A stretch of 24,660 nt of DNA from a virus. The first letter of the stretch is position 1; every line of letters starts with the position of its first letter. The translations under genes and the position numbers were made by a program. Under the pieces are notes generated by a model, which searched no databases, was not told the DNA's origin, and saw nothing but the letters and a program-made list of their open reading frames with translations. Shown piece by piece: positions 3,982-8,641 of the stretch. The DNA lies in the IMG/VR virus record IMGVR_UViG_3300006752_000216, positions 1 to 24,660 of that record; one strand, written 5' to 3'.

Positions 3982-4130
3982 TTTTCAGCACCTGCCGCAA
4001 TTTTAAAATGCTCTCCACATTTGGGACATCTAAAGGACCAAACATTTCGAACTCTTTCGTATCGTATGAAAGCAACCTTCCATCCAACATCACAATTATT
4101 TTTACAATTCACATTTTTTATTTTAGCCAT
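3978..4130 (-). CDS. Zinc-ribbon microprotein (50 aa)
   Basis: Cysteine pairs NCKNNC near residue 9 and RCPKCGEHF near residue 35 make a four-Cys ribbon. The central segment is basic and aromatic (WKVAFIRYERVRNVW). It overlaps the previous gene by 13 nt and the next by 4 nt, and GGAGG lies about 9 nt before the ATG. Nucleic-acid binding is plausible from the fold class only. Confidence 0.66.
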   Translation of the reverse strand: MAKIKNVNCKNNCDVGWKVAFIRYERVRNVWSFRCPKCGEHFKIAAGAEK

Positions 4131-4603
4131 TCTGGTCTTCCTCCTAATTTATACTTTGCAAAATGTTTCTTTTCTGCAATGTAGTAGTTGCGATACGCTT
4201 GTATTGTATCTTCGCATTTGTATTGTTCGGGCATACACTGTGGAGGTTCTCTCCAACCTGTGCCTAAATCTTCGGGTGGATTATTTATCACACCGATGAA
4301 TTTTGAACTGCCGTGTATTTTTCCATAACGGCGAGTATATTCTTTGCACATCTCAACATATAGTTCATAATGCCATAGATATTGCTCATTCGTTTCCCTT
4401 GTCCATATGGTCGAGGGGTGATTGATGTGTGCTGGCTTGAATAAATGGTAAGATGTGTTTTTTTCGATTTTTTCCAAAGTGTCTGCCTTACACCAATAAG
4501 CGGCGCATAACATTTGAGCCGATTCTGTTATCATTTTTACAACATGTTTGTCGCATAATTCTTGTGCAGAAGTCTGCGGGTTTCCTAAATAAAATATGTT
4601 CAT
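4118..4603 (-). CDS. Conserved phage protein (CDKHVVKM family), unknown function
   Basis: A 161-aa protein opening MNIFYLGNPQTSAQELCDKH and continuing VVKMITESAQML. Later it has H-I-N-H-P-S-x-I-W, YLWHYEL, YTRRYGK and, near the end, YRNYYIAEKKHFAKY. From memory, this order of motifs occurs in many cyanophage and other phage proteins of unknown function. Conserved His, Cys and Lys residues hint at an enzyme. ATG 4603 is used because GGTGA lies 5 nt upstream. It is the first gene of the leftward operon, directly after its likely promoter and operator. Confidence 0.85.
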   Translation of the reverse strand: MNIFYLGNPQTSAQELCDKHVVKMITESAQMLCAAYWCKADTLEKIEKNTSYHLFKPAHINHPSTIWTRETNEQYLWHYELYVEMCKEYTRRYGKIHGSSKFIGVINNPPEDLGTGWREPPQCMPEQYKCEDTIQAYRNYYIAEKKHFAKYKLGGRPEWLK

Positions 4604-4670
4604 AATTGTCACCTTTTTTTAAAATTTGATTTTTCCTTCTGAAACTTTGATTTCTATACGAGTGCCTAAG

Positions 4671-4720
4671 ATATAGGTCATATTGACCGACATTCTCACC
4701 ATGAGACATATGAGAATGTC
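4671..4720 (-). promoter_or_regulatory. Left-operon promoter with inverted-repeat operator
   Basis: Reading leftward, the perfect inverted repeat GACATTCTCA (4689-4698) and TGAGAATGTC (4711-4720), 12 bp apart, is followed 10 bp later by ACCTATAT (4678-4671), a plausible archaeal TATA/BRE element. It lies about 70 bp before the ATG at 4603. A dimeric protein bound to the repeat would sit next to the TATA element and could activate or repress the operon. Confidence 0.55.
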
Positions 4721-4761
4721 AAAGTGTAGGAGATAATCCGCATACCTCATACATTTCGCAT

Positions 4762-5060
4762 GACATTCTCACTTTCTCATGTTTCTCACTCACTATGCCT
4801 TACACATATATAGATACATAATACATACTGATACATATAATAATAAGAATAAGAAAATAGAGTTAAGAGTATATGAGAATATTGAGAATATGAGAATGTG
4901 AAACACTTTGTTTTCTATAATCCAATTATATAGGACAAACTGTTTTCTCATGCGTGTCTCATATGAGAATGTCCAACGGATTGTAATAGAAAGTATAAAT
5001 TAAATAAAACATAATAAGGTAAATAATACAAAGTGTTTTTTAGGTTTGGTTTCTCATGTG
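4762..5060. repeat. Array of TGAGAATG / CATTCTCA elements
   Basis: Beyond the operator at 4689-4720, the element recurs as GACATTCTCA at 4762-4771, TGAGAAT at 4874-4880 and 4883-4889, TGAGAATGTG at 4891-4900 and TGAGAATGTC at 4964-4973. Shorter TTTCTCAT or TTTCTCAC relatives occur at 4773, 4782, 4944 and 5050. Three copies near 4874-4900 are spaced 8-9 bp, nearly one helical turn. Sequence alone cannot tell operators from replication iterons. Confidence 0.6.
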
Positions 5061-5239
5061 AACATTTGAAATAATTGGTTCAATGCGTTCAAATGACTTG
5101 AGATAGTCAATGAGGGGGTCAAATGGCTATAAGGTGGTGCGACAAGGATTGCAGCGAATGAAAGTAAGTGTAGCACTCTACACTAGGTGTAGCGCATAAC
5201 ACCACTATTATTCATCAATAATGATTATCTGTTTTAACT

Positions 5240-5249
5240 ACCATATGGT
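5240..5249. repeat. Palindrome ACCATATGGT, copy 1
   Basis: First of nine identical 10-bp palindromes (the others start at 5818, 6006, 6913, 7848, 7995, 8175, 8333 and 8708). This copy is not followed by the ACCTTAT element on either strand and lies downstream of the leftward gene at 5393. Confidence 0.75.
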
Positions 5250-5282
5250 TGCGGCATTTTAATTTGTTTCTTAGCAAACCCT

Positions 5283-5392: not shown

Positions 5393-5743
5393 TCATTGAG
5401 AACCCGCCTTAATGCTGGCAATCATGGCTTCCTTGACTTTTTCTTCAATTGCTTCAAAAGTCCGAGTCCGAGGGATAGTCAAATCCGGGAAAGCCGTAAA
5501 AACATCATTGAGCATGTTGGCAAAAACATGAATGTCTTGATTTTGCTCTTCTGTCAATGTGATTGTCAAGCGTGTTCCCTTGACAATTTGGTGTATTGCC
5601 TTGGACCATGTTTCGACTCTTGGTGAGTCGGGTCTTTTGTCAATACGCCCCAAATACATTTGAACATCTTCAATGTCCATTGGGTCTTCTGCTGTTTCAA
5701 GCCATTTGTTGGCCTTCGCTACTATCTTATCGGTGTCAAGCAT
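5393..5743 (-). CDS. Hypothetical protein (116 aa) under palindrome promoter
   Basis: A mixed-charge helical protein beginning MLDTDKIVAKANKWLETAED, without Cys clusters or known motifs. AAGGAG lies 8 nt upstream of the ATG. It is a single-gene unit: promoter with the ACCATATGGT site at 5818, terminator at 5283. An out-of-frame acidic mini-frame (MNFNDDDE) overlaps its stop. Standing alone in the control zone, it could be a regulator or replication accessory protein, but nothing in the sequence proves it. Confidence 0.8.
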   Translation of the reverse strand: MLDTDKIVAKANKWLETAEDPMDIEDVQMYLGRIDKRPDSPRVETWSKAIHQIVKGTRLTITLTEEQNQDIHVFANMLNDVFTAFPDLTIPRTRTFEAIEEKVKEAMIASIKAGSQ

Positions 5744-6085: not shown

Positions 6086-6736
6086 ATGTCAAAAAAAACA
6101 GACAAAAAAATGATGAGTGATGATGAATGGAATGCTTGGACCGCAGATGTGAAAACATTTGTAGCCAACAAAGATGAGGTTATGCGACTTACATCTCAAG
6201 CAGAAAACGACGAATCGTTGCGGAATGGCGAGGCTTTTAATGCCGATAACTTTGAAGATGACTTTGAAGACATTGAGAACTTCTTGAAGCGTGGTGCAAC
6301 TCGAATTGCTATGCGAGAGATTTACAAGAAAGATATTCTTTCCCGTGGTCGAAAAATGTCTCTTTGGCCTAAGCGTCAAGGTGGCGGTTCTCAAATGCCT
6401 CAATATCAACAAGCCGTTCTTAATCAAGCGGATGCAATTTACAACATGGCTTTTACGGCTTATTGGAATGTTCTTGAAGAAAACAACGCATCTCACCTTG
6501 AGATGAGTCGGGCTTCAAATGCAAATGCTACAAACGGCGCACCTTATGAAAATGTTCAAGCATTCGTTAAGGCTCGTTTGACTTCAAAGATTGCAGGTCT
6601 TAAAGGAGACATTCGCAACGGTCTTTGGACAAATGCCGACAATGAGAAAAAGTTCGACTTGTCTCAACCTCTTCAACGACCATTTGACCCTTCAAAGGTT
6701 AAGGTCGAAGAACCTTCAACTGAGGAATCGGCTTGA
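6086..6736 (+). CDS. Hypothetical protein (216 aa), possibly abundant
   Basis: This soluble, mostly helical protein has a very acidic patch (NFEDDFEDIENFL, about residues 55-67), a basic middle (RGRKMSLWPKRQGGG) and an acidic tail. Its arginine codons are mainly CGN, unlike the AGA-rich rightward operon, which could mean high expression matched to host tRNAs or a different origin. GGGGG lies about 10 nt before the ATG. It is driven by promoter P2 and followed by a probable terminator. An acidic -1-frame extension (KSFFEDDEE) overlaps its stop. No family recognised; a DNA-binding or replication accessory role is speculation. Confidence 0.82.
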   Translation: MSKKTDKKMMSDDEWNAWTADVKTFVANKDEVMRLTSQAENDESLRNGEAFNADNFEDDFEDIENFLKRGATRIAMREIYKKDILSRGRKMSLWPKRQGGGSQMPQYQQAVLNQADAIYNMAFTAYWNVLEENNASHLEMSRASNANATNGAPYENVQAFVKARLTSKIAGLKGDIRNGLWTNADNEKKFDLSQPLQRPFDPSKVKVEEPSTEESA

Positions 6737-8342: not shown

Positions 8343-8375
8343 AAGTATATAATTTGTTGGGCGACCCCAACCAAA

Positions 8376-8410
8376 AGAAAGAGGGCCGAAGCCCCCCTTC
8401 TCGTTTTTTT
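8376..8410. terminator. Bidirectional hairpin terminator
   Basis: An 11-bp stem (with two G-T pairs) closed by a tetraloop: CGAA on plus, TTCG on minus. It is followed by seven T on the plus strand and by TTTT on the minus strand. It would stop the leftward gene at 8420 and any rightward transcript from the 8050-8340 region. Confidence 0.65.
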
Positions 8411-8419
8411 CATTCATCA

Positions 8420-8641
8420 TCAAACAATGCTATCCCCCACATCAATTACCCAATCAAAAATATCAATTGCAGGATGCCATGCAACTCCATCAATAATCCA
8501 ATCTTGAGAAATCCATATTTTTTCGCTACCCCTTGAATGTTCAGTAAAAAGCAAAGCCCAATAATCCTCTTGAGAATACCAAACCATTCCATACACCTTA
8601 CTGGGTTGGCCGTGTGCATTATTGCCTATCATAGAATACAT
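8420..8641 (-). CDS. Hypothetical tryptophan-rich protein (73 aa)
   Basis: A small, aromatic-rich, probably beta-sheet protein (VYGMVWYSQEDYWALLFTEH; IWISQDWIIDGVAWHPAIDI). GGTGA lies 6 nt upstream of the ATG. It forms a single-gene unit between promoter P4 and the terminator at 8376. Its stop overlaps an acidic out-of-frame tail (LFDDE), as at two other genes of this zone. Function not recognised; a protein-binding or inhibitor role is possible but unproven. Confidence 0.75.
   Translation of the reverse strand: MYSMIGNNAHGQPSKVYGMVWYSQEDYWALLFTEHSRGSEKIWISQDWIIDGVAWHPAIDIFDWVIDVGDSIV

Follow-up and report, generated by a model that had tools for sequence, protein, structure and literature searches.

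A dyad-symmetric TTCTCA array between the diverging gene arms of a probable magrovirus-like virus: a candidate replication origin

Gene arms and viral setting

The window analysed here is a stretch of 24,660 nucleotides from an IMG/VR virus record; the main relative used for comparison, G002, is a second IMG/VR record (IMGVR 3300028829_004116, 92 kb). A non-coding stretch of 285 bases (4689-4973), dyad-symmetric about position 4831 and hereafter called the array, lies where two gene arms diverge. It separates a leftward replication arm, which carries PolB, RFC and ERCC4, from a rightward arm. The first leftward gene (4118-4603, minus strand) matches a pyrimidine-dimer glycosylase family (Pyr_excise / phrog_624). 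In a check for an adjacent Rep gene, this glycosylase was the flanking gene and several other proteins encoded next to the array had no family match.

The leftward arm of G002 encodes a family-B DNA polymerase, a clamp-loader-like AAA protein, an ERCC4 nuclease and a Cpn60 chaperonin and includes a ribonucleotide-reductase match, and its rightward arm encodes the large terminase. The same layout, in which PolB, RFC-S, Cpn60 and ERCC4 share one arm and the terminase lies with the structural genes on the opposite one, characterizes Magrovirales (PMC10768690, PMC10160649). The gene layout of G002 matches that of published magroviruses, whose replication genes and morphogenesis genes have opposite directions of transcription (PMC10768690, PMC12999244). 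The best matches of PolB and RFC among isolates include haloviruses. Pfam searches recognised neither an MCM in G002, G005, G009 and G010 nor a TFIIB corresponding to the TFB of the type species, and we therefore leave the family placement within Magrovirales open. The viruses that carry the array are probably magrovirus-like, with marine archaea as hosts, and their resemblance to magroviruses suggests Poseidoniales as the host group. Magroviruses are abundant in surface oceans and, to our knowledge, known only from metagenomes.

No DNA similar to the window was found in a phage collection. Scans found no relatives of the small proteins encoded at 5393-5743 and 6086-6736, and PDB sequence searches found none for three proteins or for one HTH protein. 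Many otherwise different rightward proteins encoded between 9314 and 17500 (plus strand) begin with M-x-W-x-x-I-L-K (MGWRDILK, MSWQDILK, MNWFDILK); this shared N-terminal tag is present in relatives too.

Architecture and conservation of the array

The perfect 10+10 inverted repeat (4689-4698/4711-4720) reported in the preliminary description is present and begins 10 bp from ACCTATAT (4678-4671, minus strand). Its right arm reads TGAGAAACAC in G002 and G004, so this palindrome is not the conserved unit. Exact copies of the 10-bp word GACATTCTCA occur at 4689 and 4762 on the plus strand and at 4711 and 4964 on the minus strand, and nowhere else in the window; it recurs once with one mismatch (4891, minus strand) and several times with two. 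The core shared by these copies is the hexamer TTCTCA/TGAGAA, which clusters more strongly than any other 6-mer of the window: 290 bp hold 10 exact copies, whereas 300 dinucleotide shuffles gave no more than 5. The true repeat unit is this hexamer and not the 10-bp word.

Each of the 10 exact hexamers of the array is paired with one in the opposite orientation, at most 1 nt off the mirror position about 4831. Among 20,000 random placements, none matched 10 of 10 and none exceeded 8 of 10. The sites follow the order > < >>> (spacer) <<< > <, and this mirror symmetry of the whole array, absent from the preliminary description, is its key feature. An eleventh hexamer (5051) is unpartnered and lost in G002 and G004; the array proper therefore ends at 4973. 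Further repeats had been described as extending over 350 bp; they are conserved and far above chance expectation, but the array proper is shorter than that span.

Two modules, each about 100 bp long and inverted relative to each other, make up the array; each has TTCTCA..TGAGAC..TGAGAA, ACAnnnTGTAGGAGATAAT and three TTCTCA sites. The left half-module (4689-4788, plus strand) contains TTCTCA (4693), TGAGAC (4701) and TGAGAA (4711), followed by a ACAnnnTGTAGGAGATAAT-type element and a TTCTCA triplet. The right half-module (4874-4973, minus strand) is an inverted copy of the left, as judged from the mirror partners and from a half-module alignment. TGAGAC at 4701 has a mirror partner of its own, GTCTCA at 4956. 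The second element, CAAAGTGTAGGAGATAATC (4720-4738, plus strand), is conserved in relatives and in the half-module alignment; its mirror counterpart (4924-4942, minus strand) is degenerate in the window and clear in G004, where it reads CACTTTGTAGTAGATAATC. Sixteen half-modules from 8 genomes yield one consensus, which contains ACATTCTCA, ATnTGAGAA, ACAAAnTGTAGGAGATAAT and ACATTCTCATATTCTCATTATTCTCA. The outer site and the triplet are 73 bp apart, about 7 helical turns (71-72 bp in G010 and 71 bp on the left in G009).

The 8-9 bp spacing noted earlier for one group of three copies is confirmed, but there are two such triplets, mirror images of each other. The left triplet (4766-4788, plus strand) has sites at 4766, 4774 and 4783, with start spacings of 8 and 9 nt, and the right one (4874-4896, minus strand) has sites at 4874, 4883 and 4891, with spacings of 9 and 8 nt. 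Between them lies a simple-sequence spacer of 85 nt (4789-4873). This spacer corresponds to the A/T-rich tract previously noticed in mid-array, which holds for the window (76% A+T) but not for all relatives (51-79%). The A/T fraction is 0.74-0.79 in the window, G002, G005 and G006, 0.62 in G004, 0.58 in G009 and 0.51 in G010. The spacer measures about 61-95 nt in relatives and may be A/T-rich, (GA)n, (CA)n(CCA)n or (TTA)n(TATG)n(TG)n.

A comparison with related viruses had been proposed earlier; it was made, and the repeats are retained. The array layout is kept in 8 related viral genomes, in some of which the surrounding DNA can no longer be aligned. Alignments of the array region were obtained for G002 and G004 and, at 74%, for G005 and G006. 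In G010 the DNA match is limited to a short part of the array and in G009 there is none, yet the same site arrangement is present in both. L166 was detected through the site pattern alone. Exact sites with mirror partners number 10/10 in G002, 9/9 in G004, 7/8 in G005 and G006, 8/12 in G010 and 2/6 in G009, several of whose sites are degenerate. Each near-complete genome of about 90 kb (G002, G005, G009) has one array: a second group of three sites inside 150 bp was not found in G002, nor was a second group of four inside 300 bp in G005 or G009. No array was seen in G008, which ends before the divergence point, or in the nearly one-directional stretches examined of G014; these two were not counted as losses.

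Most other contigs recovered with the site pattern were set aside as unrelated or as same-strand TTCTCA ladders resembling coding repeats. Three others (L153, 699-972; L215, 4634-4872; L229, 271-532) have TTCTCA/TGAGAA clusters in a different arrangement around a (CT)n tract, which in L153 and L229 adjoin a predicted P-loop ATPase/helicase-like gene.

Promoter-like flanks and a second palindrome

TATA-like boxes, judged by eye, lie on both sides of the array, on the left in 7 of 8 genomes and on the right in most. The TATA/BRE-like box of the leftward operon, ACCTATATC (4670-4678, minus strand), is retained as (A)CCYATATC in the 5 genomes aligned, and G009 and G010 have a TATA-like stretch at a similar distance. 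Between this box and the array, and overlapping the box, is a palindrome, GGTCATATTGACC (4676-4688), identical in the window, G002, G004, G005 and G006 and absent from G009 and G010, which is possibly a further operator. The rightward box, AGTATAAATTAAATA (4992-5006, plus strand), is kept in the window, G002, G004 and G005 and altered in G006, with A/T-rich equivalents in G009 and G010. In L166, about 28 bp separate the outer site from the glycosylase start codon.

The right flank (5020-5249, plus strand) is conserved and non-coding, with 77% mean column identity over 5 genomes. It contains small hairpins, a further TATA-like sequence, CTATAAGG (5127-5134, plus strand), that has counterparts in relatives, and a copy of the palindrome ACCATATGGT at 5240. 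A structured RNA at 5108-5250 was considered and rejected, since its minimum free energy was not significantly better than that of shuffles and covariation was slight. No Rfam family matched the right flank near gathering strength. Elsewhere, a weak Rfam match to STnc420 (8371-8426, minus strand; 22.8 bits against a cut-off of 70) is almost certainly due to chance.

Nine exact copies of ACCATATGGT occur between 5240 and 8717 and none elsewhere in the window. Downstream of several of them (6006 and 6913; 5827 and 8717 on the reverse strand) lie AAGGnnnATTTG and, about 30 nt further, ACCTTAT(AT), and ACCATATGGT is probably the upstream element of a promoter class. The segments between its copies are rearranged among relatives. 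The array is unlike ACCATATGGT in sequence, layout and position, which supports, at the level of sequence, the earlier proposal of two control circuits. L215 also carries seven copies of ACCATATGGT.

Candidate functions of the array

The array had been proposed to be either an operator of the left operon or an iteron origin. Both an origin and an operator are still in play, in altered form. A simple left-operon operator does not fit a symmetric, two-sided element that has a TATA-like box on each side and persists in L166 with no such box between it and the gene, and a classical iteron origin does not fit 6-bp sites set in two inverted modules. At roughly even odds (a probability of about 0.5), we read the array as a viral replication origin with embedded control of divergent promoters at its edges. 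This reading is favoured by the mirror architecture, the single copy per genome, the elaborate size, the position between the arms and the persistence in L166. The layout is moreover kept in 8 genomes despite surroundings that cannot be aligned in G009, and nearly so in G010. Other putative promoters have a single ACCATATGGT palindrome, which is far less elaborate than the array.

For the array we infer protein binding, strand opening, origin function and promoter activity as follows. A putative virus-encoded DNA-binding protein would occupy the TTCTCA sites in the two inverted, rigid modules, and a second factor would bind ACAnnnTGTAGGAGATAAT. The two symmetric complexes might then open the simple-sequence spacer or distort it, and the viral replisome would be loaded there in both directions. 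The same complexes may additionally set transcription of the two diverging arms.

A simple-sequence spacer between inverted groups of sites is comparable to OriS of herpes simplex virus, where inversely oriented initiator boxes lie on either side of a spacer (PMC12543377). The likeness is one of architecture: in the array the sites are shorter, far more numerous and grouped in modules of about 100 bp, the spacer varies in composition and the viruses are unrelated. We know of no UL9-type protein in viruses that bear the array. In archaeal chromosomal origins, repeats flank an unwinding element (PMC5333045). The array repeats likewise flank a central stretch, but this is A/T-rich in the window and not across relatives, and no Orc1/Cdc6 gene was recognised in these viruses. 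TTCTCA is not an ORB known to us. For both systems the resemblance is limited to layout. Iteron origins of plasmids and phages, such as lambda ori, also have repeated initiator-type sites beside an A/T-rich tract, as in the window; the array differs in its short mirrored sites, which do not form a run of long identical direct repeats, and no Rep gene was recognised near it. Searches of the accessible literature, which included few subscription papers, turned up no origin in magroviruses or Poseidoniales, and the accessible magrovirus papers name neither an origin nor a master regulator.

Several observations weigh against an origin. The spacer is variable in length and not A/T-rich in G004, G009 and G010, and no known initiator (Orc1/Cdc6, MCM) was recognised. 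Orc1/Cdc6 (PF09079) is absent from G002, G005, G009 and G010, and a host or very diverged initiator is still conceivable. The GC-skew check suggested in the preliminary description was run and lends no support. In G002, cumulative GC skew is lowest near the array and highest near the convergent point, but at four-fold sites the skew keeps its sign across the array in all three of G002, G005 and G009. The switch thus reflects gene direction, and GC skew was rejected as origin evidence.

A serious competitor, which we rate somewhat lower, is a purely transcriptional account, in which an activator or repressor on each half-module of a bidirectional operator controls the nearest of two divergent promoters, those of the left operon and of a rightward non-coding leader, and the spacer does no more than link the halves. 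It agrees with the explanation of the skew by gene direction alone and with the TATA-like boxes on both flanks; in seven genomes the left box keeps a similar distance of about 15-16 bp to the outermost site, as for a promoter element. The half-modules are rigid and the spacer is variable in length and sequence, so that the halves may act independently. UAS/operator regions of divergent archaeal promoters likewise lie directly upstream of TATA-like boxes, but the array is far larger and strictly dyad-symmetric, and its strict mirror spacing and single copy per genome exceed the needs of a local operator. Furthermore, no rightward ORF of convincing size lies in the window between the right flank and the next leftward gene, and the array persists in L166 with no TATA-like box before the gene.

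A single, elaborate, conserved non-coding site per genome could also serve another DNA transaction, such as packaging (pac) recognition, recombination or segregation. This is improbable: the large terminase gene is not adjacent, no contig of the relatives ends at the array, and magroviruses are described as having no integrase (PMC12999244, PMC10768690). A last alternative is that the sites are functionless and arose by chance or as coding repeats. The same-strand ladders of other TTCTCA-rich contigs, with spacings of mostly multiples of 9 nt, do resemble coding repeats; for the array, this alternative is refuted by the shuffles, the mirror test, the intergenic position and the conservation across diverged genomes.

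Returning to the origin reading, a bolder form of it is that the array represents a new modular origin of tailed archaeal viruses, with two inverted TTCTCA modules of about 100 bp, an expendable simple-sequence spacer and an initiator that is encoded by the virus and has no relation to Orc1/Cdc6 or to known Rep proteins; we consider this rather unlikely. The array can serve as a marker for finding further relatives. As a single conserved site per genome, it offers a concrete place to test where replication of these viruses starts and which viral protein directs it.
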